DNA of 64,000 nt from a virus: the IMG/VR virus record IMGVR_UViG_3300023199_000127, positions 1-64,000 of that record. The stretch is one strand, 5' to 3'. The notes under the pieces were generated by a model that had not been told where the DNA came from, made no database searches, and saw only the letters and a program-made list of their open reading frames with translations. Numbering within the stretch: position 1 is the first letter of the stretch; every line of letters starts with the position of its first letter. Positions 3,304-45,087 of the stretch are shown here, piece by piece. The position numbers and the translations under genes were made by a program.

Positions 3304-3503
3304 TGGCATTCCAGTATGAACCTTTTACAGCAAGCGGATCGCACACCTTTGATGGTAACAATTTCGAAGAGGACCATTTCATTGTGCCCGAAACGGTGAT
3401 TCAAGATGACTATCTATGGTGTGCCAGGTACACGCGGGACATGGATCCTTCGTTTAACTGCTGGAAGATGGATAGATGTACTCGATATCTCTTGCATGGA
3501 TGA
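3303..3503 (+). CDS. Hypothetical protein, 66 aa
   Basis: Starts at the ATG overlapping the previous stop. It is aromatic and acidic (FEEDHFIVPETVIQDDYLW), with two Cys near the C-terminus (FNCWKMDRC). It is not recognised. It is the last of three tightly packed small genes; 112 nt without a supported gene follow before the lipoprotein at 3616. Confidence 0.55.
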   Translation: MAFQYEPFTASGSHTFDGNNFEEDHFIVPETVIQDDYLWCARYTRDMDPSFNCWKMDRCTRYLLHG

Positions 3504-3615
3504 GGTAGTCTGAGCTCGGGGCTTGCCAGACACTCCTCACGACTCCCGCTTTCTCCCGCTTCACCTGCGCTCTCACTGGCAGCCCCCTTCTTCACATTGC
3601 TGGTATCATGGTGGT

Positions 3616-3954
3616 GTGAGGACCCAACGAAAGACCGCAGCCCCGAGGGCAGAGTCTGCGTCGAGCAGGCACCGCCATTCAAGAGGATTCGCTACCTCCT
3701 TGTCCCTCGGGGCACTTTTGCTCCTTATGGTGGGGTGTTCGGGATCCCGGCCATGGGTGGCCGGGGCCCCGAATCCGTACGGAATCGATGACTACACCAA
3801 GACTCCTCCCAAAGGAGGGACACTTGGAGTAGAATGGGAAGGCAGAGAGCGAACGTACCGTATGGGAGTCAGCAGCTGGTTCCGCCTGGATAATCACGGC
3901 GGGCTGCCCGACGACTGGGGTGCAGTCGGTTTCCGCTTCGAAATGGACTTTTAA
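3616..3954 (+). CDS. Lipoprotein, about 112 aa
   Basis: A lipobox LMVGC follows a hydrophobic segment (SLSLGALLLLMVGC), so the protein should be lipidated and exported. The start is uncertain. GTG 3616 gives a long, very basic n-region; longer and shorter starts are open in frame, and no clear Shine-Dalgarno is seen. TGGTATCAT at about 3600 resembles the extended -10 at 1372 but would give an almost leaderless message. The mature part is beta-like and ends in an aromatic strand (FRFEMDF). It opens a run of exported proteins through 5481, possibly a lysis or envelope-modifying set. Confidence 0.6.
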   Translation: MRTQRKTAAPRAESASSRHRHSRGFATSLSLGALLLLMVGCSGSRPWVAGAPNPYGIDDYTKTPPKGGTLGVEWEGRERTYRMGVSSWFRLDNHGGLPDDWGAVGFRFEMDF

Positions 3955-4873: not shown

Positions 4874-5481
4874 TGCGCAGTCTTCTGCCGTGTGTCCTTT
4901 TCCTAGCTGCCTGCTCAACAACCAGGCACAAGGTCGAGGCCATCCTTGATAACACCAATCGTGCGCTAGTCAGCACTGAGCGCATGACTAATGAGGTGCG
5001 TGGCACCGTCAAGGAGCTAAAGGAGGAGACAGTCCCTGCACTGACTGAGACGATCAAGGAGGCCGAGCTGGCCATCCAAAACCTTGATCGCAACCTCCGA
5101 CTCATCCTTTCGGAACTACGACCGTTGGTATTGGAGGTCAGGGCTATGGTAGCTACTCTGCTATCCAAGCTCAATACTTCAGCCGACAAGCTGAATCTGC
5201 TTCTGGACGAGTTCCGGAAGACATCTGCACAAGCATCCGAAATCACCAGGAACGTAAACAACAGAAACCGTCAGATCGATATGCTCGTATATGGAGCTGC
5301 CGGGATTGGCTTGCTCGTGATTATCTTGCTGATTGTGATCATTCATCATAAGATCACTTCCAAGACTCGTCACAAGCGCGAGTTCGAGCACATCGTAAAG
5401 AATGGTGGCCGGCACGAGGTTGAGCGGCTCGTGCGGGAAACGCTAGAGAAGAGTGGTGATGGAAGATCAGTACCTAGATGA
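4873..5481 (+). CDS. Candidate unimolecular spanin (lipoprotein with coiled coil and inner-membrane helix), 202 aa
   Basis: Starts with GTG in a TAGTG junction. A lipoprotein signal (MRSLLPCVLFLAAC) puts the lipidated Cys at about residue 14. About 120 residues of heptad-rich helix follow (KELKEETVPALTETIKEA; KLNTSADKLNLLLDEF), then one strongly hydrophobic helix (residues about 140-160, AGIGLLVIILLIVII) and a basic tail of about 40 residues. An N-terminal outer-membrane lipid anchor, a periplasmic rod and an inner-membrane helix are the layout of u-spanins such as T1 gp11, which fuse the two membranes in lysis. Here the tail after the helix is longer. The role is inferred from topology. Confidence 0.5.
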   Translation: MRSLLPCVLFLAACSTTRHKVEAILDNTNRALVSTERMTNEVRGTVKELKEETVPALTETIKEAELAIQNLDRNLRLILSELRPLVLEVRAMVATLLSKLNTSADKLNLLLDEFRKTSAQASEITRNVNNRNRQIDMLVYGAAGIGLLVIILLIVIIHHKITSKTRHKREFEHIVKNGGRHEVERLVRETLEKSGDGRSVPR

Positions 5482-6205
5482 GGTTAGCAAGTACCCGCTC
5501 CTAACCAGTAAGGAGGAGCGAGAGCTTGCGCGCATGATGAAGCGCAAGAATAGTCGCTCCCCGCGAATACGTGCTCTGGCAGAGGAAGCTCGCCAGAAGA
5601 TGATTACATCTAACCTTAGACTTGTGATTTATTGCGTCAACAAGGTCAAAGTCCCTGAGCGTCATCGGTGTGAGCTCATCCAGGAAGGCAACATGGGCTT
5701 GATGATTGCTGTTGAGAGGTTTGATCCAGAACATGGCACCAAGTTCAGTACCTATGCCATTTGGTGGATCAAGCAGCGCATCCGGAAAGCCATGCCGACC
5801 CTCAACGAGGTCGGAAGGCTACCCCAGCACATCTGGGACAAGTTCTGGCGCAATCAACGTACTGGTGAAGCAACGGCCAAAGCCGAGGACCTTAAGAAGG
5901 CAGAGAGCTTCCTTACTGGGATCTTGGAGGTGGACGAGTCATCCTGCAAGGTGCAGTCAGACACATTCGACGAGGTCGCCCAGCAAGACCTGATTCGGCA
6001 TATCCTGGAAATCGTTGATTGCCTGTACTGCGATCGCACTCGAGAGATCATCCTAATGCGCTTCGGAGTGGATGTCGAAGCTCCTATGACTCTCGAGCAG
6101 ATCGGTCAGAGGCTAGGAATCACGAAGGAACGTGTCCGACAGATCGAGGCAGAGGGCCTGGAAGAAATTCGAACTGCACTAGAGTCTGACCTGTTCGAAG
6201 GGTAG
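5459..6205 (+). CDS. Phage-encoded sigma-70 family RNA polymerase sigma factor, 248 aa
   Basis: The domains are in the normal order: region 1.2 (YLDEVSKYPLLTSKEERELA), region 2 (NLRLVIYCVNKV, then LIQEGNMGLMIAVERFDP and GTKFSTYAIWWIKQRIR, the -10 binding helix), a region 3.0-like GRLPQHIWDKFW, and region 4 with a helix-turn-helix (TLEQIGQRLGITKERVRQIE). Region 3.1/3.2 is short and Cys-containing. It would redirect host, or a phage, RNA polymerase to phage promoters. The extended -10 boxes in this window, lacking good -35 boxes, would suit it. ATG 5459 is preferred; GTG 5453 and 5456 are alternatives. It overlaps the end of the previous gene and is followed by a strong terminator. Confidence 0.88.
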   Translation: MEDQYLDEVSKYPLLTSKEERELARMMKRKNSRSPRIRALAEEARQKMITSNLRLVIYCVNKVKVPERHRCELIQEGNMGLMIAVERFDPEHGTKFSTYAIWWIKQRIRKAMPTLNEVGRLPQHIWDKFWRNQRTGEATAKAEDLKKAESFLTGILEVDESSCKVQSDTFDEVAQQDLIRHILEIVDCLYCDRTREIILMRFGVDVEAPMTLEQIGQRLGITKERVRQIEAEGLEEIRTALESDLFEG

Positions 6206-6554: not shown

Positions 6555-6724
6555 CTCCAGCTGCCTTTGAGCTCTGGGACTGGTACTGTAGAAAGTTCGG
6601 TCCTAAATGCCGCATTGGAAGACGAGCTGCAGATGCTATCCTTAGGAAGGTGATCTATGGCAATGGACCCGAATCAGAAAAAGCCCGCCTCGCCCTTCGG
6701 CAGTCGGGTAGCACAGCGCAATGA
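6488..6724 (+). CDS. Possible overlapping small gene, about 78 aa
   Basis: An open frame continues from 6407 to 6724, overlapping the Cys-rich gene (to 6554) and the first 68 nt of the gene at 6657. The part after 6540 reads like protein (AFELWDWYCRKFGPKCRI, then GRRAADAILRKV). GTG 6488 is a possible start; ATG 6407 is the longest. No good ribosome site was found, and the gap 6555-6656 would otherwise be empty. Either a real overlapping gene or an accidental open frame. Confidence 0.35.
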   Translation: MLGQIRAQGLEAVLETVRPTGVAPAAFELWDWYCRKFGPKCRIGRRAADAILRKVIYGNGPESEKARLALRQSGSTAQ

Positions 6725-7547
6725 GAACTCCGATCCGATCGCAGACGAAGCTCCGCGACAGGACCCGGATCCTGTAGAGGTTTCCAAGGAGGAGGCACAG
6801 GAGCACGCCCTCGCTATCAAGAAGGAGTTCTCCATAGAGGTTCTGGAGGAGCCTAAGCCGGGCCCCAAGATCGCTGACTACCTGTCCAAAGCAACTATGG
6901 ATCAGCTCAGTCATGAGCAGATCAAGGCCATGAACACCAATGTTGGTGGCACCAACAACTGGGCTGAACCGGTCATGGTATGTCGTGACCATCTTTGCCC
7001 CTACCAGGACAAGTGTCCGTTGTTCAAGGCGAAGGTGCCTCGCCCGATTGGGCATGACTGCCCAGTCGAGCTCACCATGATCAGATACCTTAAGCTCAAT
7101 CTGATGAACAACCTGCCGCCTGAAGACCGCGGTGACCCGTTCATTGAACTGCAGATTGACAGCTTGGTCGTGTCTATCCTCGCCCAGTCTCGTGCTCGTA
7201 CCAAGTGGGCTATCGACGCCGGCGACATCGAGCAGGATGATGTGAAGGGTGTGGATCAGAAGGGTAATCAGATCGTGGGTAAGGTGCTGCATCGTGCACT
7301 ACACATCATGAAGGACTTCTCCAAACAAGAGAAGGAGCTCATGGCCAAGCTGCTTGCCACGCCCCAGGATCGTGCCAAGGTCGATCGTGAAGGTCTGCAT
7401 GACCGCTCCAAGCGGGCTGCAGAGCTTGGCGATCGTATTGCAGCCAAGATCGCTGAGAAGAAAAAGAAGATGCGTACCGGTGAGGTGTATATCATCGAGC
7501 GCACCGAGATTCAGGACGCGGAGTACAAAGTCCAGGACGAGGAGTAG
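6657..7547 (+). CDS. Cys-cluster protein of unknown function, 296 aa
   Basis: Starts at ATG 6657 with AGGAAGG upstream (ATG 6663 is also possible). The first 60 residues are acidic, Pro/Glu-rich and probably disordered. Residues about 108-140 hold four Cys in a compact pattern (CRDHLCPYQDKCPL ... GHDCPVE), suited to a zinc or iron-sulfur site. The last 80 residues are a charged helix with a Lys run (AAKIAEKKKKMRTGE). I do not recognise the family with certainty. It lies 3 nt upstream of the double-nuclease gene, so the two products may work together. Confidence 0.65.
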   Translation: MAMDPNQKKPASPFGSRVAQRNENSDPIADEAPRQDPDPVEVSKEEAQEHALAIKKEFSIEVLEEPKPGPKIADYLSKATMDQLSHEQIKAMNTNVGGTNNWAEPVMVCRDHLCPYQDKCPLFKAKVPRPIGHDCPVELTMIRYLKLNLMNNLPPEDRGDPFIELQIDSLVVSILAQSRARTKWAIDAGDIEQDDVKGVDQKGNQIVGKVLHRALHIMKDFSKQEKELMAKLLATPQDRAKVDREGLHDRSKRAAELGDRIAAKIAEKKKKMRTGEVYIIERTEIQDAEYKVQDEE

Positions 7548-7550
7548 TCC

Positions 7551-10268
7551 ATGAAGGGCAACTTCTACAAGGCCCTGTTCGGCACCCTGGACAAGCCTGT
7601 CGGGCTCAAGAAAGACGGCAGCGCTCTCTACCAGATCATTCACGGCATCAGGCGCCCCAATCGCTGGGCGCCTGGTGCCTTCGAGGCCATGAAGCCTGAT
7701 CATCCTGGCTTCCCTGGTGGTCGTGCCCAGGAGTACTTCCTGGACCTTGAAACGCAGGGTTTGCGTACGTCTCGTTGGGACCGGTGGCTGGGCGTCCCTG
7801 CACGACGCGATATCGACGCTCTGGAGCTCTCTCAGGTGTCTTTCGCCCGGAAGACCACTAAGGGGCTTGAATTCATCCTGGGCGATGCAGAGGGCCAGCA
7901 GAAGGCCTTCACGGACATCATCAACCCCGAGCTACTGCAGCAGCACAAGATCGGCTCGGTTGATGACCTCGCCGGCAAGCACGCCAGTCCATTTCTCAAT
8001 GCTCTTTCCCAGCAGAATGTGAAGGGGTACTGGGACTCGGCTATCCACGTCGAAGGGAATACTCTGCGTGGTGTGCTCGAGAGGCATGTGCAGCATGTGG
8101 TGCAGGGCGGTGAGACCCAGAAGTCCATCGGCTATGTCGACCAGATGCTCAGCACTATGCTGAAGGACATCGACTCTGGTGAGAATGTGCATCTATCTGG
8201 TTGGAACGTGGGATTTGACTGGGGTCGTATTCGTGAGGTTGCGCAGGGCGATGAGAGGGTGATGCGCAAGGTGCGCCGTCTCATGACTGCTCAAGCCCAG
8301 GGCACGTTCAAGATTCAGGATAAGTCTCGACATTTCAAGTCCATGGTCTGGGACGCTATGGTCGCAGATCCCTCGGTTGTTCCCTCATTCACCGACTATG
8401 CCAAACTCGAGCAAGTTGTGAAGAAGGGTGGGGACCCGAAGCACGCACTTGTGGAACACAGTGCGATGCGGGACTTTATGGACGTGATGTCCGAATCAGA
8501 TGATGCCATGCGGCAAAGCCGACTGCACAGTCGGTTTACGGACGCGCTAGAGGCAGGGGCTGATCCTCACCTTGCCCAGGAGCTCACAGAACGTCTATCC
8601 GGTGTGCGTACGTATGCAGACTGGGAAGAGGCAGCCCATGGTCTAAAGCAGACTGACGACCACACCAGGGCTCTCAGGAACCTGTTTGAGAGGGGATTCA
8701 AGCCTCATGGTGGCAAGATGTCCACCAGGCATATGTCGCTCCTCGGCGCCGCCGGCCGCGGCGACGGGGTGCTAGACACGGGCTTCTCGTTCGTTCTCGG
8801 CTGGAAACAGGAGAACGTGGCAGAGGCCCTAGTAGATGTTCTCCCGGAGACTCAAGCGAATGAGCTTCGCGAGCTCATGAAGCGTGGTGTGCACGACTCT
8901 GATATCGATGTCCTTCTATCCGAGCAGGTTGGTCGTCATCTCGAAGATATCGCTGCAGCTGGGCCGAACGATACACGGTTCAAGGCCCTGATCGGGAACA
9001 CTATCCAGAATACGGATGCAATGGCCTCGGATGTCTCTGCCCGCATGCAGCTGATGCTGCAGCTGAAGAGAGAGGTGGCCAATGCACAGGCAAACCAGTC
9101 CATGGATGCTGCTCGTGCCATCAACAAGGTTGATGACATGAAGGGCAATAAGGGTATCTGGTTGGCCGGTATGATGGCGGCTTCCGGCTTGTACATGTTG
9201 CAGTCCTGGAATCAGAGTCCCGAAGAGATCGAGGTGCGTACACCCCGAGCGGTGCGGCAGCCTACGAGCTACTGGGATCAGATCAGTGGTATTGATCCCT
9301 CTCAGCTACATAAGGCTAATGTCTCCGATTTCGGATCTGGCCGTGACGTTTTCACTCAACTCCTTGGAGGTAGCTACTCCCCTAATATTGACTGGGTGCC
9401 TGCCTCCGCATTGGGCATGCGGGGCAAGCAGCTGGATAGTGCTTTGGGAGAGTACGAATCTGGTCACTACCAAAATACAGCTGGTCCTGGTACCCCCTCT
9501 AGGTTCCAGGAAACGGTCATGCTTGGTAACTACTACCACAGCGTGGCTACGCACATGTTCGGAGATGCTATTGAAAGTATCGAGTATCCTGTGCGAGATC
9601 CTTACCTGAAGGTGTCTGGCCGTGTTGATGCTGTTCTCAAGTCTGGTATTCCTCTGGAAATCAAGACTGTGGAGACCGCCGAGGATGTAATGCAGATGCG
9701 TGAGGGAAAGCCCACACACGTGTCACAGGCTAACTTCTACGCATATGCTCTCAATCAGCCGTACGCCTACCTGGGTTACTTTGCACGTGACAATCCCCAG
9801 GTTTTCCGATTCTTCCGAGTACCGGTCGATCACAATCGTTTGATGCAGGACTATGCCGCTTCCCAGACATCTCTTGGCGAACTGCGGGATAAGGGGATGA
9901 CCTCCAAGGTACGTAAGGACTTCCAGTCTATCCCTGACCGTATCTACCACGATTTCATGCCCTTTAGTGAAGAGGGTGTCCACTACGTAGACCACGATCA
10001 TATGGTCATGCCTGGCGTGGCACCTGGGGCCTTGAACCCCATCCCCGCCATGGACAGGCCCGGTGATTTTGCCCATCTGCTGCGTCAGAGGTTCCAGAAC
10101 ATGGGCTATGGTGGGTTTGTCCAAAATGCTGGTAGAATGAATAAGAGCAAGATTGCGGACAAGTTCCGCCGTTCTGCGGATGCGAATCCTGCTATGAGAC
10201 CGTTTGTTCGTACTACTACCCGTCGTACCGGGGTGCACGCATCTCGGGTGGAGGCCTGCGCATGCTAG
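7551..10268 (+). CDS. Two-nuclease fusion: DEDDh exonuclease plus PD-(D/E)XK nuclease, 905 aa
   Basis: N-terminal part: Exo I motif FLDLETQGL (D65, E67), Exo II WNVGFDWG (D223) and Exo III HSAMRD (H303, D308), the DEDDh set of DnaQ-like 3'-5' exonucleases. A helical linker follows, with a hydrophobic segment at about 536-551 (GIWLAGMMAASGLYML). The C-terminal part has GRVDAVL (D693), LEIKTV (E703, K705) and SQANFYAYAL about 20 residues on, the order seen in RecB/Cas4-like PD-(D/E)XK nucleases, plus an upstream GNYYHSVATHMFG. The last 100 residues are basic. The membrane-like helix and the neighbours (head genes; Gly/Ala-rich proteins) make a virion-borne or packaging-linked nuclease possible. 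Confidence 0.7.
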   Translation: MKGNFYKALFGTLDKPVGLKKDGSALYQIIHGIRRPNRWAPGAFEAMKPDHPGFPGGRAQEYFLDLETQGLRTSRWDRWLGVPARRDIDALELSQVSFARKTTKGLEFILGDAEGQQKAFTDIINPELLQQHKIGSVDDLAGKHASPFLNALSQQNVKGYWDSAIHVEGNTLRGVLERHVQHVVQGGETQKSIGYVDQMLSTMLKDIDSGENVHLSGWNVGFDWGRIREVAQGDERVMRKVRRLMTAQAQGTFKIQDKSRHFKSMVWDAMVADPSVVPSFTDYAKLEQVVKKGGDPKHALVEHSAMRDFMDVMSESDDAMRQSRLHSRFTDALEAGADPHLAQELTERLSGVRTYADWEEAAHGLKQTDDHTRALRNLFERGFKPHGGKMSTRHMSLLGAAGRGDGVLDTGFSFVLGWKQENVAEALVDVLPETQANELRELMKRGVHDSDIDVLLSEQVGRHLEDIAAAGPNDTRFKALIGNTIQNTDAMASDVSARMQLMLQLKREVANAQANQSMDAARAINKVDDMKGNKGIWLAGMMAASGLYMLQSWNQSPEEIEVRTPRAVRQPTSYWDQISGIDPSQLHKANVSDFGSGRDVFTQLLGGSYSPNIDWVPASALGMRGKQLDSALGEYESGHYQNTAGPGTPSRFQETVMLGNYYHSVATHMFGDAIESIEYPVRDPYLKVSGRVDAVLKSGIPLEIKTVETAEDVMQMREGKPTHVSQANFYAYALNQPYAYLGYFARDNPQVFRFFRVPVDHNRLMQDYAASQTSLGELRDKGMTSKVRKDFQSIPDRIYHDFMPFSEEGVHYVDHDHMVMPGVAPGALNPIPAMDRPGDFAHLLRQRFQNMGYGGFVQNAGRMNKSKIADKFRRSADANPAMRPFVRTTTRRTGVHASRVEACAC

Positions 10269-10834
10269 GCAAGCTTTCTGGTTTCACCTCATACTTTGGC
10301 CGTCAGGGTCTGGGCAAGACCCTTTTGCGTGGTGCTGCATCCATGAACCCCATTGATATCGCTCGAGGTGTCGGCGCAAGAGGCGCTGGCAACCGAGAGA
10401 CATCGATGGGTACCCACTTCATGAAGCAGGTAGGCGCTACTATGCGCGGCGCCGGTACCACGTGGAAATCTGCTCGTCAGAAGGGCATGGGATTCACGGA
10501 TATGGCCAAGCACTACTGGAAGGGTCACAACCTCTCCGATGTGGCTGCTGACTTGGGCGTGGAAGGCATGCGCCGTACTCCCAAGGGTGATATCCGACGG
10601 AACATGTTTGTCAGGCGCACTGTGCTTGGCGCCATGGGCGCCAGCACAGCTGCCAGCTACATGATGGGTAGTGACAACGCTGTATCCAACACGGTTGGTT
10701 TTGCCCAGCAGGGATTGGTTCATGCTGGGGTGAGTGCAGGGCTTGGTGCGTACAAGCCCGGTCTTGGTGCCGCCTACGCCGGGTGGGCCGGACTCAACAT
10801 GATGCGTCGTGGCGATAACTTTGGACCTTTCTAA
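10262..10834 (+). CDS. Gly/Ala-rich basic protein, 190 aa
   Basis: Overlaps the nuclease gene by 7 nt and the next gene by TAATG. Rich in Gly, Ala, Met and Arg, with alternating amphipathic and hydrophobic stretches (TVLGAMGASTAASYMMG; AGLNMMRRG). There is no signal peptide and no enzyme motif. It shares composition and style with the next two genes and with parts of the nuclease at 7551. Together they may be internal head or ejected membrane-active proteins; this is an inference from composition. Confidence 0.55.
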   Translation: MLGKLSGFTSYFGRQGLGKTLLRGAASMNPIDIARGVGARGAGNRETSMGTHFMKQVGATMRGAGTTWKSARQKGMGFTDMAKHYWKGHNLSDVAADLGVEGMRRTPKGDIRRNMFVRRTVLGAMGASTAASYMMGSDNAVSNTVGFAQQGLVHAGVSAGLGAYKPGLGAAYAGWAGLNMMRRGDNFGPF

Positions 10835-11679
10835 TGCTTGGTAAGTTGCTTGGTAGTATCTCGCGCCAGAGAGGCGTGCAACGTGATCTAGCCAATATGG
10901 CTGCTTCGGGAAATCGTGGCCGTATTGGTCGCTTCCTTATGGGTAGTAAGGAGATTGCTAAGGGCACCTCTAAGTTTGTGCCTGGTGCTACTCGAGATAT
11001 CGGCAAGTCTGTTGGATGGTATGCCGGTGCTGGAGCTCTAGAGGAACTTGGTGAGCGCACTGAGAACGACAAGGTAGCCGGCCTGACTGGTGTGGCCTCA
11101 TGGTACATGCGCACACGCGGATTCCGTTCTGCACTGCGAGCCCCTCTGCAGGGTGTTAGAGCAGCCTCCAGTGGGCGCATTCGTGGTGCCAGTGACTGGA
11201 TGATCAAGAAGTACAACCAGGTAGCTTATTGGCCTGACCGAGCTATTGCTGGCGTGGCAAAGCGTACCCCTGGTGGTGCAAAGAACTTCATGCTTGGCTC
11301 CAGGACCAATCGTGTACCTGGCCCCTTCCGGCCGATCTACGGTGCCGCAGAGGTCATGAGCTCCGTGGTGGGTGGCTCAATGGACCGTTTGCGCTACGGT
11401 CTCCGTACTCCGACAAATCGAGGAGTGATGGGTCGGCTCATGCGCGCTAAGCATCCCTACTGGGGTGCTGTGGGTATGGGGGCTGCACTGGGTGCTACGC
11501 GCAGCGTTCAGCAGCGCGAGCACCTTTCTGGGACTAATAAGTGGTATGCAGCTCCCAAGGGTGGAATCAATCCTAGTAATTACAGATCCATCACGTTTGA
11601 AAACTCGCGTGGATATCGTCGCACCACAATGGGTAGCGACCGTATGTCCCAGCGCATGGCCAGTGGGGGGATGCGCTAA
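10834..11679 (+). CDS. Gly/Ala-rich basic protein, 281 aa
   Basis: Starts in a TAATG overlap and ends in another. The start MLGKLLGSISRQRGV resembles that of the previous protein (MLGKLSGFTSYFGRQG), so the two may be paralogues with a shared N-terminal amphipathic segment. The composition is strongly basic, with Gly/Ala-rich hydrophobic pieces (GAVGMGAALGATRSVQ). The function is unknown; see the gene at 10262 for the shared hypothesis. Confidence 0.55.
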   Translation: MLGKLLGSISRQRGVQRDLANMAASGNRGRIGRFLMGSKEIAKGTSKFVPGATRDIGKSVGWYAGAGALEELGERTENDKVAGLTGVASWYMRTRGFRSALRAPLQGVRAASSGRIRGASDWMIKKYNQVAYWPDRAIAGVAKRTPGGAKNFMLGSRTNRVPGPFRPIYGAAEVMSSVVGGSMDRLRYGLRTPTNRGVMGRLMRAKHPYWGAVGMGAALGATRSVQQREHLSGTNKWYAAPKGGINPSNYRSITFENSRGYRRTTMGSDRMSQRMASGGMR

Positions 11680-12401
11680 TGCACGGTCCCTATCAGGGTC
11701 TCACCATAGACGATGGTGGTGCAGCCAATCAGGAGATGCATTTCCTGGATGACTTCGGTCTGGGCTGGGCTGGTATCCCGCTGTATATGGCCACAGAGAT
11801 GATGGTTGGTCGCATGACTGGCGGTAAGGGGATGGCCAAGATCCTCCGGAAGAGCCAGAAGGCTGCCTACCGTTCTCTCACTGGAGTGACAGGCTTTGGG
11901 CTCAAGGAGCCCGGTGCAGGATCTGTGCATAGGTTTAATGTCCATGCTAGTGCTGCACAGAGGAGTGGACAACTCCCCCAAGAAGCACGTCGCTATATGC
12001 GCCTTAAGAAGGACCTAAAGGGCTCAAGACTCTTGCGTGGTAAGGGTAATGTTGCCGAAGCTTTGATGCAGAAGGGTGGGTCATTGCGCAACATGTCCCA
12101 AAGCTATGGACGTGGTGCAGCAGCCAAGATCTATGGTGCAGCTACAGCTGGCCGACTGGTGAGAGGTGCCGCTGTAATTCCCTTGATGCATGCCTTTGTC
12201 GGCATGGGTAGGTCTATGGCAGAGTCCATTATGGATTGGGAACCTCAGCAAGCTGATGATCCCCGTGTGCAGTTCGGTGGCTACTACGCTGATACGCGTA
12301 CGGCGATGACACAGAGGCAGGCGTCTATCCAGGCTATTCACAACTCTGGAATTGCAGCAAGGAGTGCGCTTGCCAACGAGGCTGCTCACATCCATAGCTA
12401 A
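11679..12401 (+). CDS. Gly/Ala-rich protein with hydrophobic segments, 240 aa
   Basis: The third member of the overlapping set. Two hydrophobic stretches are visible (GLGWAGIPLYMATEMMVG, about 28-45; AAVIPLMHAFVGMGRSMA, about 163-180) between basic, Gly-rich regions. No catalytic motif was seen. Its stop overlaps the start of the Hint-like gene by TAATG, so it belongs to the same transcript as the terminase. Confidence 0.55.
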   Translation: MHGPYQGLTIDDGGAANQEMHFLDDFGLGWAGIPLYMATEMMVGRMTGGKGMAKILRKSQKAAYRSLTGVTGFGLKEPGAGSVHRFNVHASAAQRSGQLPQEARRYMRLKKDLKGSRLLRGKGNVAEALMQKGGSLRNMSQSYGRGAAAKIYGAATAGRLVRGAAVIPLMHAFVGMGRSMAESIMDWEPQQADDPRVQFGGYYADTRTAMTQRQASIQAIHNSGIAARSALANEAAHIHS

Positions 12402-12940
12402 TGCCCCAGCTACACCCTAATACCATGGTGTACGACGGAGTGAGAGCTTGTCGTGCACGCGAGCTTGGTTCCCCCTATGACTCTTTCCATGCTGTGAAGG
12501 TCGAGACTCATTGGCTGCCGGAAATACGATGCGACGGACGTACGTCATTTACGACGTATGATGGCCAGGTAGCAGCAGAGGATCTAGTGCCGGGGCACTG
12601 GCTGAAGATGCCCCGGCACCAGTTTGATGGCCATACACCCCTGGTGGCTCCTGAGCATCGTGGCACTGTAGATACACATGAGGCTTTCTATACCTTGATG
12701 CGCATGTTCAGTGAGGGGCCGGCTAAGCTTCTGGACATGGATGACTCAGAAATACCTGAGTGGCGAACTAGCAAATGGCTCCCTCTTCCGGTAGATGAGA
12801 GCATGGTGAGATATCACACTGCAATGGTCCGCTGGGACGAAAACGCTTGGTGGTTCCGTGTTTATGCGGTACAAAATAGTGTGGAGCCCCTGGTGTCCGT
12901 GGGTGATTCATACACGATGGCATACGGGATTTTGCTATGA
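12401..12940 (+). CDS. Stand-alone intein-like (Hint-fold) protein, probably inactive, 179 aa
   Basis: The ends resemble intein splicing blocks. NTMVYDGVRACRARELG (about 7-23) resembles block A but lacks the catalytic Cys/Ser at position 1. DGQVAAEDLVPGHWLKMPR (about 54-72) matches the strand after block B (compare ASEVVPGDWVGLTLPR in the terminase intein). WFRVYAVQN...DSYTMAYGILL (C-terminus) matches block F but stops just before the expected His-Asn. The block B TxxH is also absent. No endonuclease is present. It overlaps its neighbours at both ends (TAATG; ATGA with the terminase), so it looks maintained rather than decaying. The relation to inteins is inferred by eye. Confidence 0.5.
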   Translation: MPQLHPNTMVYDGVRACRARELGSPYDSFHAVKVETHWLPEIRCDGRTSFTTYDGQVAAEDLVPGHWLKMPRHQFDGHTPLVAPEHRGTVDTHEAFYTLMRMFSEGPAKLLDMDDSEIPEWRTSKWLPLPVDESMVRYHTAMVRWDENAWWFRVYAVQNSVEPLVSVGDSYTMAYGILL

Positions 12941-18002: not shown

Positions 18003-20279
18003 ATGGCTTGGTACAACTTTTTCTCAAAGCGCAATAAGCGCACTGCTACGCGCCGGCGTCGCAGGGCGCCTCGTACTGTCTCCTTCTCGCAGGCACAGCA
18101 GCCTGCTGTACCTTCGGAGACTACCGAGCAAGATCTACGAGCCGCCACACAGGGTGGCGAGGCTATCCGCAAGAAGACTCAGGTAGTTGCTCAGGGACTC
18201 AAGCAGCTGCGTAGGCAGCAGCCTGCAGTCCTGAACTACGAGCGCTATCGTTCCGCTCGAGGTCTCTACAATGATGTTGTGGAGTGGGTTGGTCCGCAGT
18301 ACGATCTACAGGAAATTGCCAAGGCGCTAGACACTGAATCATATTTTGCTCGATCTGTTCAGCGTCATATCGAGCTCATCTTGAAGAATGGATTTAGGCT
18401 GAAGGGCAAAGATCCCGAGCGTGTGCGCTACCTAAAGCGCCGGCTTCATGAGATTGCACTGACCGTGGATCAGACTACGGATTCCATGATCGGCGAGATC
18501 GTCTTCAATGCAGTAGCATTCCACAACTCGTTTGTGATCATCAAGCGCGATCCTCTACGCTCTAGTGGTGCGCGTACCAAGTGGAAGGGCCGGACCATGG
18601 ATCCCATGTCCGGTTGGTACTTCCCCGACCCGACCACCATGTCTGTGAAGCAGACCAAGTCTGGTCTTCCAGTGCAGTGGCGCCAGAGAGCCCATAATTC
18701 GGGCCTTCTTGGGCATACCGTAAGTCGCACTGATACAGCTTTCGAGAAGAAATTCCCTACTCGTAATGTGATCCACATCGCGCTAGATAAGCGCTCTGGG
18801 TGGACGTTCGGTACTCCGTATGTGATCCCCGTGCTGGATGATATTAGGCTCCTGCGTCGCATGGAGGAGCTGATGGATATCATTGCCCACAAGCATGCAT
18901 TCCCGCTGTTTGTGGCTACGGTAGGGACAGAGACTCTGCCGGCTGAAGATGTTGAGATCAATGGCAACATGGTCTCAGAAGTCGATCTCTTCAAGGATCA
19001 GATCGAGGACATGGAATTCGAAGGCGGTCTCGTTGTGACTGAGCGTCACACTGTCGAGATGATCGGTGCTGAGGGTAAGGCTCTAGATCTTGGTCCTTAC
19101 CTGGAGCATATCGAGAAGCGTGTTATTGGTGGCCTACGTCTTAGTGAGCTTGACCTTGGCCGTGGCGATTCAGCTAACCGTAATACCGCTCAGTCCATCA
19201 CCCAGATTCTCATCGACTCGTGCACGCGCATTCAGCGCGTGATCGAGTCGGAGATTACCTGGAAGCTCATTTTCCCTCTGCTGATGGAGGGCGGCTTCAA
19301 TGTCCGTCTCGATCGCGCAGAGGAAGACATGGTGTATCTTGACTTCCCGCCCATCGATACCGAGGAGCGCAGGAACCAGGAGAACCATGAGATGGCGCTC
19401 TACCAGGGCAGCATGATCGACGAGGATGAGGCTCGGGGTCGTAGCGGTATGGATCCGATCGAGGAATCTAACCGCGAAAAGATGTACCTCGAGCGCCAGC
19501 AGATCCCGCTCATAGAGGCCAAGGCCGATGCGGAAGTTCGCGTGGTTAAGGCCAAGGCTGCAGCTGGGGGTACCGGTGGTGGATCGAGCGGGACGTCTTC
19601 TGGGAGCTCTTCTACGCGCTCTACGTCCAATAAGAACCGTCCCACGAATCAACACGGGACATCTCCCTCTAAGCCCAAGATTGCTAGGGACCGCCTTAAG
19701 GACTCCTTCGTGGAGTCCGCAGGCGGTCGCTGGGAGGAAATGATTGACGTGGTCGTGGACGGACTGGATCGATCTTCCAAGAAGGGTGACCTGGTCGAGT
19801 ATCACGATCGTAGAATCCGCTCTGAGATTGGTAAGGCAATTGGTTCTATTGTGGTCGATGCCGAAACCAATCTAGTGCCCGTTATGCTTGAAGCATTCCG
19901 GGTTGCAGCCGGCGACGAGCATGCAATGCCGGCTAAGTCTGTTCGCCGATTCTTGGACCATCATGCCAAGTCTAGCTTGAATGACCTCAAGGATCGTGGT
20001 ATTCAAAGGGTGGACCTTCCGTCTTGGTCTGATGAAATTCCGACGCGTTTGCGAGTCCGTAGCACGCTGGAAGCGCTTCATGCCGATCTGCATATGAGAT
20101 CGCAGAAGATCGCTCACCAGGCATGGGCTTACGCATTTGCGACGGGGGCAAAGATGGCCGGGGCGGCTGGTGTTGTGAACAAGAATGAGCAGCAGGCTTT
20201 CACTTTCCCTGTCCAGCCGGAGGATCTCGTCTCTCCGACTGCTGACTCGTATCCCGAGCTCGAGGTAATGGAGGACTAG
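18003..20279 (+). CDS. Portal protein, 758 aa
   Basis: The ring at the capsid vertex through which DNA passes. Evidence is position and sequence: an Arg-rich N-terminus, a long alpha/beta body, the segment FGTPYVIPVLDDIRLLRRMEEL (about 275-296, start of the wing/stem region) and LRLSELDLGRGDSANRNTAQS (about 378-398), which is typical of portal stems and crowns. The Gly/Ser-rich linker at about 520-540 is followed by a C-terminal helical domain (about 560-730) that many portals lack; it could be a tethered accessory domain. It lies between a large head protein and the protease-scaffold gene, 1 nt before the latter's GTG. Confidence 0.8.
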   Translation: MAWYNFFSKRNKRTATRRRRRAPRTVSFSQAQQPAVPSETTEQDLRAATQGGEAIRKKTQVVAQGLKQLRRQQPAVLNYERYRSARGLYNDVVEWVGPQYDLQEIAKALDTESYFARSVQRHIELILKNGFRLKGKDPERVRYLKRRLHEIALTVDQTTDSMIGEIVFNAVAFHNSFVIIKRDPLRSSGARTKWKGRTMDPMSGWYFPDPTTMSVKQTKSGLPVQWRQRAHNSGLLGHTVSRTDTAFEKKFPTRNVIHIALDKRSGWTFGTPYVIPVLDDIRLLRRMEELMDIIAHKHAFPLFVATVGTETLPAEDVEINGNMVSEVDLFKDQIEDMEFEGGLVVTERHTVEMIGAEGKALDLGPYLEHIEKRVIGGLRLSELDLGRGDSANRNTAQSITQILIDSCTRIQRVIESEITWKLIFPLLMEGGFNVRLDRAEEDMVYLDFPPIDTEERRNQENHEMALYQGSMIDEDEARGRSGMDPIEESNREKMYLERQQIPLIEAKADAEVRVVKAKAAAGGTGGGSSGTSSGSSSTRSTSNKNRPTNQHGTSPSKPKIARDRLKDSFVESAGGRWEEMIDVVVDGLDRSSKKGDLVEYHDRRIRSEIGKAIGSIVVDAETNLVPVMLEAFRVAAGDEHAMPAKSVRRFLDHHAKSSLNDLKDRGIQRVDLPSWSDEIPTRLRVRSTLEALHADLHMRSQKIAHQAWAYAFATGAKMAGAAGVVNKNEQQAFTFPVQPEDLVSPTADSYPELEVMED

Positions 20280-23647: not shown

Positions 23648-25105
23648 ATGAGCCTCCCCGAAATCACCAAGGACTCGCTCGAGAACGACGGCGTCAATCT
23701 TAGCGCCTTCTCCGATGAGCAGGTCGATGCCCTCCTGCACATTGTCAAGGCCCGCGACTCGCAGGTCGAGACGGAGATCGAGAAGCGCGTCGATGAGCGC
23801 CTCGAGCAGAGCAACCTGTCTGTCGACCAGGCAGAGGCCATGCGCATGAAGTACGGCATCAAGCGCCGTCATCTTCGCGACATGGACAAGCGGTACATCC
23901 GCAACCTCGAGATCTGGCGCAACAACGGCGTTGATCCGGATGACCCGGAGATTCGCTGGAACTACAAGGACCTGGCAGATGCCGATGCACGGCGTCTCGA
24001 GGACGCTCGGAGCGGCAAGCTCGAGCGTGCCGAGTACGTCGACACGCAGTTCTCCACGGACCAGCCGCTGCTCATCCCCAAGGTGATCAGCCAGGTCGTC
24101 CGTGAGGCTGTCGAGCCTCGGATCGTTCTGCAGGACCTCCTGCAGCGTCTCAGCTTCTCGGCAGGTACGCAGATCACCTTCCCCGCCGTCAGCGCCATGC
24201 GCGCCGGCGACGTGGACGAGGGTGCTGAGTACCCGACCGGTCGTCTCGAGATGGCCGGCCAGGTCACCGCAACCCTGGGCAAGTCCGGTATCGGCGTCCA
24301 GATGACCGAGGAGATGATTCGCTACTCCATGATGGACGTGATGACCATGCACCTCCGCGCTGCGGGCCGTGCACTCATCCGCCACAAGGAGCAGAAGGTC
24401 TCCGACCTGATCGCGGCACAGGGCTCCACCTTCCGTGACAACGTCACGGCAGGCGGCACCCGCACGAGTGGTCGCGCTTTCGACGGCACCCTGAATGGCA
24501 CGATGCACATCGATGACATATTCGATGCCTATGCAGACATGGCCGACCAGGGCTTCCAGGCGAACACGCTGATCATGCACCCCTTCGGGTGGCTGATCTT
24601 CGCCAAGGATGCAACGCTCCGTCACGTCGGGTTCATGAACAATGGCCCGATGTTCCAGAACTACCAGGGTGAGGTCGGCAACGCTCCCCAGTGGCGCATC
24701 GGTGGTCTCAACCAGACCTCCGTGGTCTCGGCTCCCGAGGCGATCGCTGGCACCTACACGAACGTGCCGAACACGCTCCCGACCGGCATGCGGATCATCG
24801 TGAGCCCGTATGTGCCGTTCAACAGCTCCACGAACACCACCGACATCTGGATGTGCGATGTCAACGAGCTCGGCATCCTGGTGGTCGACGAGGAGGTCAC
24901 GACGGACGAGTGGGTCGATTCGGCCCGTGATATCCGCCACGTCAAGCTGCGTGAGCGCTACGGCCTCGCGCTGCTGAACAATGGCACTGCCCTCCGGCAG
25001 TTCAAGGATGTCTACATCGGCAAGAACTTCCCGGTTGAGGACCGTGCGGTCTGGGAGGCCGGCACCGGCGCCCTGCCCACCGGCTTCAGCCTGGGTGGCT
25101 TCTAG
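23648..25105 (+). CDS. Major capsid protein (HK97 fold), 485 aa
   Basis: AAAGGAA precedes ATG 23648. The first 110 residues are charged helix (QVETEIEKRVDERLEQ), likely a delta-like segment that the phage protease could remove. The body has features of HK97-type capsids: LLIPKVISQVVREAVEPRIV at about 138-157, FPAVSAMRAGDVDEGAEYP (about 179-197), GKSGIGVQMTEEMI (about 214-227), LIMHPFGW (about 311-318) and a C-terminal DIRHVKLRERYGLALLN. Codons are strongly biased to C endings. It is followed by a strong terminator, as expected for the most abundant product. Confidence 0.88.
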   Translation: MSLPEITKDSLENDGVNLSAFSDEQVDALLHIVKARDSQVETEIEKRVDERLEQSNLSVDQAEAMRMKYGIKRRHLRDMDKRYIRNLEIWRNNGVDPDDPEIRWNYKDLADADARRLEDARSGKLERAEYVDTQFSTDQPLLIPKVISQVVREAVEPRIVLQDLLQRLSFSAGTQITFPAVSAMRAGDVDEGAEYPTGRLEMAGQVTATLGKSGIGVQMTEEMIRYSMMDVMTMHLRAAGRALIRHKEQKVSDLIAAQGSTFRDNVTAGGTRTSGRAFDGTLNGTMHIDDIFDAYADMADQGFQANTLIMHPFGWLIFAKDATLRHVGFMNNGPMFQNYQGEVGNAPQWRIGGLNQTSVVSAPEAIAGTYTNVPNTLPTGMRIIVSPYVPFNSSTNTTDIWMCDVNELGILVVDEEVTTDEWVDSARDIRHVKLRERYGLALLNNGTALRQFKDVYIGKNFPVEDRAVWEAGTGALPTGFSLGGF

Positions 25106-43100: not shown

Positions 43101-45087
43101 AAAGCTGAACCGCTTGTACCTCGGCATGTCCGAAGCTATGGTGGGCAAGGACTCTGTAATCAAGCGTTACTTTCAGCCTGACGATATGATCGGGATGACT
43201 GGGCGAACTGTCACCTCTCCCTTCTTCAACCAGAAGGCAGAGGTGGCTACGGTTGGTATCTATCGCGGCGCACTAAAGCGCGCTGCCAAGAACGGAGATC
43301 CCCGTGCTGTTCAGCTGTTGAAGCGAGCCAAGACCGGCAAGGATATCTACGGTACTGTGTTGGCTTATCCCGGTACCGATGCTGCGCACCACGCTGTGGT
43401 GCGTGTGAAGCTGATGGACAAGCAGCACATCGTTGGGAGTGACTTGGCCAAGCAGGTCGGCAATGAAGGTCTTGAGAACCTGATCTTTACCTCGCCCACG
43501 TTGCGTGCTGCCACCGAGCGAGACCTCGACTTCGACTGGAACTACTTCCGGTTCATCACAGGTGATGAAGCTTCACAGGCTGCATCAGTCGTGCATGGTG
43601 AAACAGTACGTCGACTGGACCCGCTACACGCCTTCATTAACGCTGCTCCTGGGGGTGCTACCCTACGTCAACAGGTCTCCGGCATGACACAGGCCCTCGA
43701 GGAACAGATCGGAAAGGATATCTCCGGCTTCAGTCTCGGTGAACTAGCACAGCGTGAGCAATCCCTCATTGAGGGCTCCGCTGTTCTACGCCAGAAGCTT
43801 AGCTCTCCGCTGACATACTCGTCGTTTGTCAGACAGCAGACTCTGGCTGCGTATATCGGCGAAGACCGTGGTGCCGACCTGGTGATGCGTGCACTGGGCG
43901 CAGCGGACAATAGTCCGACCGCCCAGGCTGTGACAGGCGTGAAGGAGATGCTTGCTGATCCCAAGTTCAGGGATACGTTCTCCAATGCCTGGACTGCCAC
44001 ATACTATGCCGCCCTGAAGAAGGGTGCCGCTGATGAGTCCATCGCCACTATGGTGGGTGATGTACGCAGGCTCACACAGGTTGCCTCCGAGGGCGGACGT
44101 GCTGGGCAGCGAGCACAGGGCCAGCTTGCTGAGAAGATGTTTGGGATCTTCCAGAGATCGACGCCTGGCGAGAATATCCTGATGCGTGTGCTCAATCAGT
44201 CCGGACTCACGGAGGGGGAGCACTACCACGTCGGAGCTGCCGGTGAGGCAGCCCAAGGCGCCATTGAACAGATTGGCGGCAAGGTGTATGTGACACAGCC
44301 TGGTCGTGATCTGCTGATGGAGAGATACTTCAACCCCATGGCAGAAATGCTGGGGAACCTGCAGCACATCGAAGATGCGACTAAGGAGACTGCTCTGTGG
44401 CACGCTCTTCGTCCTCTTGCTGGCCAGACTGCACCTGATTATTCACGCGCCCAGGAAACCATGGGTGTCCTCGACCTGTTGGGTCGAGGCATGAAGGATG
44501 GTGCTTCCGCGGAGCATGTTGGTGATGCCGCGCGTGATATGCAGGCCATGATGGATGCGCTTCAGGACACTGATCCCTTGCTGCACAGGGAAATGATGGA
44601 GACTGCAGCAGAGGCTGGTGGCTACCAGGCTATGGCGGATGGTGCCAGAGCAGCAGCCGGCCGCGGGAAGGATATTTTCAATCGCATCTGGAGCAGCAGG
44701 TGGGGCAAGATCGGGACGATCGGTGCCAGCGCTGTTCTGGGCCTTGAACTCTTCGGTGGCCTGGTGGGCGATGATACTCCCCCGCCTGTGATGGCCGGCA
44801 ATGGGGCTCCTATGCCTCCCACGCCTGCTCTACAGGGCGTTGCCCAGAAGCAGCATCCGCAGCCGTATATCCCTCCCAGGCCGGCACGCATCCAGCGTCC
44901 GGCCTCTATGAGGACCCATGTTTCTGCCACCATGAGGGACACAGCCCCCTCATATGGGCAGACCCGTGGGCACAATAGTTCCTTTCCCTCTCACGGACAA
45001 ATCGATTATCCTGAGAGGGACAGGGGCGAGGTTAACCCCTGGGTGATGCGGAATTATATGAGTCAGCGCATGGTGTCGAGCTACTAG
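40192..45087 (+). CDS. Candidate single-chain two-barrel RNA polymerase, virion-delivered, 1631 aa
   Basis: Two motifs recall the double-psi barrels of multisubunit RNA polymerase. At 879-901, KGDHM...RFGAGKGGVAAV resembles beta K-P-G-D-K-M-x-x-R-H-G-N-K-G (candidate lysines K879, K895). At 1097-1127, SPTLRAATERDLDFD then ten residues and EASQAA match, with identical spacing, beta-prime P-x3-AA-x3-DFDGD-x10-EA; the Asp triad is D1111, D1113, D1115. Upstream GTVLAYPGTDAAHHAV (1054-1069) could parallel the NRAPTLHR segment. The DxDxD without Gly and the single-chain order recall crAss-like phage gp66 and YonO. The C-terminus has a hydrophobic helix (about 1500-1520) and a Pro-rich tail. Matches were made by eye. 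Confidence 0.55.
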   Translation: MRDAGYGYYSSNLANYPGLVGLQEAVHSTNYAPVRSKGGLNMLIKRHRELGMGMGATKNVVRIVRALEDAGVHDIGISVHAKGGVSLRLRQGQIAIPVWDKARGVVHMGADTMAGAMHLVPTGSRLKKMDVADAFVHRFLSRMPSTSKKYGGGGSVKLGSGNMIRIKAMDPVRSVDAQVKVLQDLSRTAKTEWMQTLATQNGESQLSKAYYLQNRIQMDLTDMPELQQQAERIGDMVAAYQKGGDPTKKILLNDELERKIHTEILAFKNRLQEVAPDAQLTGIKPEAFLPFLRENKTANRVTMSTLGPQMMASMYEEDEVRKSLHQMVLARVMHQDDIMHDPQVAMGRAVARESLGRRRIVPIVTEHGYMDQMRQMAELRALRQGRAVRPGDMYQLTTRMPLTVGLMDPGQSQMAYKFLRDHIDDSGVLLGSETARTVAGMEYRHQSKVGNVQTFKAIGPMAAHINALSEDSHHHIGLIGSDLAAEGMPVLGTDASRFVGTQGAKSLRMRDRILLGIDQETGRQITMGAGDRLESITRKGDQYHFNIKRARGGSGMGAGLLVDTRRVGVTGFISPEVGVDIAGAAGDFGMKFGSNRAHTYRQYVGHVFTRLERSALDQKMQRNVMRQVGKALGADVNFKQIGSRGRAFVTLAAGMPSIDRLVEAAMSNDSSTLLKDKVVMAALADKSMTEAQRQSVINAFRVESTPMSKVMRSMGHAVSEQQAAELERAGARMYKFEGTPVQSRHVDMPSKQMGRYGMNYTLADLKLFETQMAGTQGHVGRAYRTLHDFLRPDIKTSGVGSDAYRFLGQFYEGIDGAHAGLMKADTYSLQQIAQMKNVPIQSTAQYPGGVIKESEVAGSLISGTGNNLRKGGFYVKLKKGDHMSIALMDRFGAGKGGVAAVRTDTVFIPGMEFFRGSAGLEGFNELIMQGGSRLDGSGGIERKLFGDYMNVVKTLEDYASGSADVTALQEKLNRLYLGMSEAMVGKDSVIKRYFQPDDMIGMTGRTVTSPFFNQKAEVATVGIYRGALKRAAKNGDPRAVQLLKRAKTGKDIYGTVLAYPGTDAAHHAVVRVKLMDKQHIVGSDLAKQVGNEGLENLIFTSPTLRAATERDLDFDWNYFRFITGDEASQAASVVHGETVRRLDPLHAFINAAPGGATLRQQVSGMTQALEEQIGKDISGFSLGELAQREQSLIEGSAVLRQKLSSPLTYSSFVRQQTLAAYIGEDRGADLVMRALGAADNSPTAQAVTGVKEMLADPKFRDTFSNAWTATYYAALKKGAADESIATMVGDVRRLTQVASEGGRAGQRAQGQLAEKMFGIFQRSTPGENILMRVLNQSGLTEGEHYHVGAAGEAAQGAIEQIGGKVYVTQPGRDLLMERYFNPMAEMLGNLQHIEDATKETALWHALRPLAGQTAPDYSRAQETMGVLDLLGRGMKDGASAEHVGDAARDMQAMMDALQDTDPLLHREMMETAAEAGGYQAMADGARAAAGRGKDIFNRIWSSRWGKIGTIGASAVLGLELFGGLVGDDTPPPVMAGNGAPMPPTPALQGVAQKQHPQPYIPPRPARIQRPASMRTHVSATMRDTAPSYGQTRGHNSSFPSHGQIDYPERDRGEVNPWVMRNYMSQRMVSSY

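Follow-up and report, generated by a model that had tools for sequence, protein, structure and literature searches.

Phage packaging-module nucleases are poorly understood, and only recently was the DNase activity of T4 gp4, which had earlier been predicted to be a PD-(D/E)XK enzyme (PMC1189080), reported to be required for packaging (PMC7824862). In herpesviruses, mutants of the alkaline exonuclease are impaired in DNA-containing capsids, and the KSHV enzyme SOX is dispensable for packaging cleavage (PMC9841436). The P1 Dar proteins form a precedent for the delivery of proteins together with DNA (PMC12810830), and the baseplate hub protein of a BtI1 relative bears a staphylococcal nuclease domain (PMC2147016). 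Here, we analyzed a gene for a protein that, judged by sequence comparisons and structural models, is predicted to consist of a DEDDh-like exonuclease and a PD-(D/E)XK domain of the RecB/lambda-exonuclease type, with a weakly hydrophobic helix between the two and a basic tail at the C-terminus. The domains themselves are of known kinds. In the part of the literature that was searched, we found no description of their fusion, of the place of the gene in a packaging operon or of the exchange of the second nuclease.

The window (denoted W, as is its two-nuclease protein, with relatives labelled L002, L009, L011 and so on) comprises the first 64 kb of a virus record of 180,792 bases. The gene and its surroundings are as follows.

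6657..7547, plus strand: putative small-terminase-like gene with a cysteine cluster, directly 5' of the two-nuclease gene (PHROG 83, 0.0037; synteny)
7551..10268, plus strand: gene for the two-nuclease protein of 905 aa, one uninterrupted ORF
10262..12401, plus strand: three small Gly-rich head-operon genes of 190, 281 and 240 aa (synteny)
12401-12940: 179-aa gene before TerL, with a counterpart in L002
12937..16122, plus strand: large terminase (TerL) with an intein (PHROG 2, 8.4e-27; the TerL of L002 is intein-free)
18003..20279, plus strand: portal protein (PHROG 9232, 1.1e-40)
23648..25105, plus strand: major head protein (PHROG 3922, 3.5e-23)

The two-nuclease gene starts 3 bases past the upstream stop and overlaps the start of the next gene by 7 bases. 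Its neighbours, namely a putative small terminase, TerL, the portal and the major head protein, identify the surroundings as a packaging and head operon, which bears out the original prediction on this point. The small-terminase label of the upstream gene is tentative, as the PHROG 83 match is weak and was not reproduced in the relatives. The order of the 190-aa and 240-aa genes is kept in the W-type loci, while a sequence match to the 281-aa gene was detected in L002 only; none of the three belongs to a known family in Pfam or PHROG. The TerL intein covers residues 289-659 of the product, and L002 carries the uninterrupted extein. By eye, the product of the 179-aa gene has a Hint-like appearance (TTYDGQVAAEDLVPGHWLKM), and it matched no Pfam family above the cut-off. 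A sigma-70-type factor, of which regions 1.2, 2 and 4 score above the Pfam cut-offs, is encoded at 5453-6205, immediately before the putative small terminase; it is kept in L002 and is possibly a late-gene switch. We also observed that the tail of the 281-aa protein (11600-11679, DRMSQRMASG) resembles that of a 1,631-aa protein (45030-45087, NYMSQRMVSS), which perhaps reflects a common targeting signal, or chance. On the minus strand, a short ORF at 3410-3682, possibly a fragment, has an end that resembles how a Ser/Thr protein kinase domain begins (QLNEGSMSRVYLAHHR).

To gather the family, we used the N-terminal half as query, a TerL profile (44 related loci) and a profile of the C-terminal domain (12 more), with some duplicates among the loci obtained. 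Searching phages and viral contigs directly with the full-length protein gave almost no matches, and two scans of bacterial and archaeal genome contigs revealed no relative, so that no host was assigned. In about ten virus lineages, the gene lies directly 3' of the putative small terminase and 5' of TerL. The order putative small terminase, two-nuclease gene, 190-aa gene, 240-aa gene and TerL is found in W, L002, L009, L051, L052, L056, L057 and L060, and L011, of which the 5' end is cut, shows the same order from the two-nuclease gene onward. In L018 the two-nuclease gene is followed by the 240-aa gene and TerL, and in L013 a compact homologue without second nuclease occupies the same position, in both cases downstream of the putative small terminase. 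Since the fusion recurs on independent contigs, the joining of two nucleases in one protein, as originally proposed, is genuine and not an assembly artefact.

The second nuclease is exchangeable across the lineages, as indicated by sequence comparison, with the DEDDh-like part and the genomic place being kept. It is a PD-(D/E)XK domain in nine lineages (W, L009, L011, L018, L051, L052, L056, L057 and L060) and is absent from L002 and L013. A second clade of related large phages (the L032, L039, L030 and L041 groups; L080-L084) encodes a protein of ~1,270-1,330 aa upstream of a related TerL, in which a DEDDh-like motif set that has Glu at motif II precedes a staphylococcal nuclease domain (PF00565; 4.1e-13 in L032, 1e-12 in L030 and 4.4e-13 in L039); a clearly hydrophobic segment is present in two of four cases. 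The cultured Acinetobacter phage ME3 has a gene for a TnsA/T4-gp4-like nuclease (PF08722, 5.1e-14) between its TerS-like gene and TerL. This gene adjoins that of a 529-aa DEDDh-like protein with the motifs FDTETTG...HTALSD and a hydrophobic segment, of which the Pfam matches are below the cut-off. As in L080-L084, motif II of ME3_11 has Glu for Asp. The TerS-like gene of ME3 (ME3_9) appears to contain an intein inside its cysteine cluster. A profile comparison of the W-type DEDDh domain with the staphylococcal nuclease clade and ME3 performed no better than shuffled decoys, and these would thus be linked to the W-type domain by motifs and gene position only. In Bacillus phage KLEB27-3 the slot holds only a short hydrophobic protein, in L020 the two-nuclease gene is missing from its slot, and none of the upstream genes near the record end of Moorella phage MTATph1 is annotated as a two-nuclease protein. 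Several relatives carry additional N-terminal parts: DUF4406 in L002 (1.2e-11), a HAD-like part in L057 (0.0016, below the cut-off) and, by eye, a similar VD(I/L)DST motif in L009 and L056. DUF4406 is also encoded in the present genome, stand-alone and with a weak MazG-like match (L065:12578-13513, minus strand); in L002 (6706-9495) it is fused to the DEDDh protein.

The N-terminal half is very probably a DEDDh domain, and here conservation weighs more than fold.

7722..8975, plus strand: DEDDh-like exonuclease domain (residues ~58-475) containing a large insertion (model, motifs, relatives)
7743..7751, plus strand: motif I, D65-x-E67, kept in every member covering the motif
8199..8219, plus strand: motif II, GWNVGFD (D223), from conservation
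8457..8474, plus strand: H303...D308, initially taken for motif III, a chance match that is variable in relatives
8892..8909, plus strand: corrected motif III, H448-x4-D453 (16/16)

All DEDDh motifs had been placed within residues 65-308. D65, E67 and D223 are indeed conserved, but motif III was misplaced, so that one of the four catalytic acids was wrong. W-type relatives show H, N, G or S at position 303 and S, K, A or N at position 308, D308 being present solely in W. The true motif is H448-x4-D453, with H and D in all 16 non-redundant sequences from all clades, even though the spacing in L052 needs an insertion. The possibilities that H303/D308 is a decaying motif III and that D311 is a shifted catalytic residue were dropped in view of the invariant H448 and D453. 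The corrected motif lies ~145 residues beyond the earlier site, past a mostly helical insertion, and the domain therefore extends to about residue 475. Columns kept in at least 15 of the 16 sequences are D65, E67, N219, one glycine, H448 and D453, which correspond to the DEDDh residues. The exception among the catalytic positions is motif II, where D223 is Asp in 11 sequences and replaced by Glu in the staphylococcal nuclease clade and ME3; N219 and D223 are both found in 11 of 11 W-type and compact members. The motif set exceeds what chance would give: a loose motif filter, DxE(T/A)...Hx(A/G/S)xxD, retrieved solely the group of the two-nuclease gene among 614 plus-strand ORFs of at least 180 aa in the collected loci.

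The N-terminal half of W itself gave no Pfam or PHROG match. Compact relatives at the same genomic place do pass the Pfam cut-offs, namely L018 (RNase_H_2, 1.7e-6) and L013 (DNA_pol_B_exo1, 7.7e-8; RNase_H_2, 2.3e-6), and a profile built without these two finds L013 at 0.00057 and L018 merely at 0.56. A separate model of residues 51-485 reached a pLDDT of 79 and a pTM of 0.79. When it was compared with the PDB, the top two matches were a TREX1 homologue (9mrd/9mrc) and the oligoribonuclease Orn ranked tenth, with a best E-value of 0.27 that is non-significant by itself; the predicted fold is thus supportive, short of decisive. The polarity of the domain is expected to be 3'-5', the polarities of both domains being taken from family knowledge.

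The C-terminal half is, as predicted from sequence and model, a PD-(D/E)XK domain of the RecB/lambda-exonuclease type.

9483..9890, plus strand: PD-(D/E)XK nuclease domain, residues ~645-780 (PHROG 1706, 7.6e-12; lambda exonuclease fold)
9627..9740, plus strand: catalytic residues D693, E703, K705 and Q726-xxx-Y730 (9/9)

The nuclease originally proposed from D693, E703-x-K705 and a Q...Y motif was borne out by the match of residues 680-754 to PHROG 1706 (Cas4-like, 7.6e-12), by the predicted lambda-exonuclease fold, and by the identity of D693, E703, K705, Q726 and Y730 in nine of nine non-redundant domain-bearing sequences, W included. The block means of the predicted structure over residues 690-770 are mostly 77-88 pLDDT. 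Fold matches of the C-terminal half in the PDB include lambda exonuclease (3slp, 1.3e-4), LHK-Exo (3syy, 1.9e-4), the Cas4 protein SSO0001 (4ic1, 3.0e-4) and MGME1 (1.1e-3); a fold search of a viral library gave a match to UniProt A7KUR9, and a sequence-profile search of the PDB returned nothing informative. The GxxxH motif corresponds to G659 and H663 in W, with Gly for His in L051 and L018. The four-cysteine Fe-S cluster of the Cas4/AddB type is absent, the only cysteines of the W protein being Cys903 and Cys905. Examined for similarity to nucleases and for conservation of the catalytic residues, the C-terminal half stands, and the N-terminal half stands after the correction of motif III.

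The two domains are connected, and the second one is followed, by segments with their own conservation.

9153..9209, plus strand: weakly hydrophobic helix, residues 535-553 (Kyte-Doolittle 0.93; helical in the model, low confidence)
9282..9347, plus strand: segment SGIDPS...DFGSGRD (residues 578-599), conserved throughout the W-type members, L002 among them
10098..10265, plus strand: basic C-terminal tail with 11 K/R versus 3 D/E (R899 in 11 of 11 aligned members)

A membrane-like helix between the domains had been proposed. The position of the segment is conserved, with values of 0.9-1.7 at about the same place in the relatives (some 1.4-1.7; the L052 peak lies elsewhere), but in W the value is only 0.93. 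This is close to the TerL peak of 0.96 and below the level of about 1.6 or more over 19 residues that is usual for transmembrane segments. The segment is a conserved weakly hydrophobic helix, and a membrane span is unconvincing in the W protein. Both the SGIDPS...DFGSGRD segment and the R899 tail are retained in L002, which is without second nuclease.

For the role of the protein, our leading reading, to which we assign a probability of roughly 45%, is that of a late, packaging-associated nuclease for DNA-end processing. The protein would be made late, and its helix and tail would anchor it to the portal or prohead while the genome is being packaged or shortly thereafter. Located there, both nucleases would remove or trim the free ends and branches of DNA that replication and cleavage by the terminase leave behind, allowing the heads to be filled and closed. 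Such a role would be of the kind reported for T4 gp4, to which the protein is non-homologous as far as tested. We favour a role at the packaging stage because the gene is in fixed linkage with those of the terminase, a gp4-like nuclease occupies the slot of ME3 and the genome has separate replication-type nucleases. The latter, all encoded outside the window in the other part of the genome, comprise a DEDDh exonuclease that stands alone (RNase_T, 1.2e-8) and two proteins with weak similarity to RecB/Cas4 (PDDEXK_1, 2.3e-4, and Cas4, 0.073, both below the cut-off); they can serve replication. With ME3 as positive control, searches of the present genome and of related records revealed no gp4-like TnsA gene (PF08722); as several of these records are fragments, the absence counts as weak evidence. 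Against a packaging role we counted the two members without second nuclease, and other members in which DUF4406 or HAD-like parts are present that have no evident role in packaging. Moreover, the absence of the gene from L020 and the stripped slot of KLEB27-3 imply that the activity is unnecessary for packaging in general.

The same observations bear on the possibility, which we regard as unlikely but worth serious consideration, that the protein travels inside the head and leaves it together with the ejected genome, its nucleases degrading host, plasmid or competitor DNA or the nucleic acids of defence systems; the helix and tail would then be the carrier part and the enzymes an exchangeable payload. 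Exonucleases need linear ends, which are present in a phage genome and absent from a circular chromosome. An ejected enzyme would therefore threaten the phage genome rather than the chromosome, which argues against delivery. Delivery with the DNA nevertheless stays viable because the gene is missing or stripped, and hence dispensable, in some relatives and because the modular extras DUF4406 and HAD-like resemble payload. Conserved carrier-like parts are combined with a second enzyme that may be PD-(D/E)XK, a staphylococcal nuclease (PF00565, 4.1e-13) or none, and the hub protein of the BtI1 relative offers a structural protein with a staphylococcal nuclease domain (PMC2147016). Against this, the KLEB27-3 genes of the slot are annotated as hypothetical, while several others are annotated as structural. 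A broader version is slightly more doubtful, namely that the proteins would make up a family, hitherto unrecognised, of nuclease carriers that are associated with the head in phages like 0305phi8-36. In this family a tethered conserved DEDDh exonuclease would be combined, differently in different lineages, with second nucleases (PD-(D/E)XK or staphylococcal nuclease) and nucleotide-processing domains (DUF4406, HAD-like), and the proteins would be carried in the virion and act in the newly infected cell.

Rather improbable, in our view, is a late nuclease, soluble or membrane-linked, that never enters the particle and that either degrades leftover DNA, be it host fragments or phage DNA that is branched or was left unpackaged, or keeps out the DNA of incoming phages, its link to the terminase reflecting co-expression only. 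The hydrophobic segment of up to 1.4-1.7 in some relatives would suit a membrane-linked enzyme, but it reaches only 0.93 in W; likewise, the gene's dispensability in some relatives and the N-terminal DUF4406 and HAD-like parts, which suggest nucleotide metabolism, are consistent with such an enzyme, but the strict link to packaging genes in the W-type clade would be left unexplained, and the genome has other nucleases for these tasks. That either or both of the domains lack catalytic activity and act as DNA-binding structural parts, as the Glu in motif II of the staphylococcal nuclease clade and ME3 and the two members without second nuclease might suggest, is most improbable given that all catalytic residues of both domains are kept in the W-type clade and are among its few invariant columns.

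A gene that holds a fixed place, keeps one exonuclease and swaps the second between unrelated folds suggests that an activity, rather than a particular enzyme, is under selection. This pattern points to a step, unstudied so far, at which DNA is trimmed or destroyed during the assembly of the virus or during infection, and the defined residues, together with the cultured phage ME3, make it possible to ask whether the protein acts at packaging or after ejection.

When compared with known systems, the C-terminal half of W matches the PD-(D/E)XK exonucleases (lambda exonuclease, LHK-Exo, RecE, Cas4 and MGME1) in predicted fold and motif set, but differs in being fused to a DEDDh-like domain, in being encoded in a packaging operon and in having no Fe-S cysteines. 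With the DEDDh exonucleases of the DnaQ/RNase T/TREX1/Orn group W has the DxE, N..D and Hx4D motifs in common, and it differs from the compact DEDDh domains of L018 and L013 by the insertion of ~200 residues between motifs II and III. The herpesvirus alkaline exonucleases UL12 and SOX are, like the C-terminal half of W, relatives of lambda exonuclease, but they have no DEDDh domain and are replication-associated. Co-ejected phage proteins, such as those of the P1 Dar system and the polyvalent proteins, are large, modular and enzyme-bearing like W, and late, as W is presumed to be (PMC12810830, PMC7824862), whereas for W virion location and ejection are hypothetical. The head-completion nuclease T4 gp4 is a small, single-domain protein of the TnsA type, for which PF08722 gave no match in W; like the two-nuclease gene, however, it is encoded within a packaging and head operon, and in ME3 a gp4-like gene occupies this very slot.
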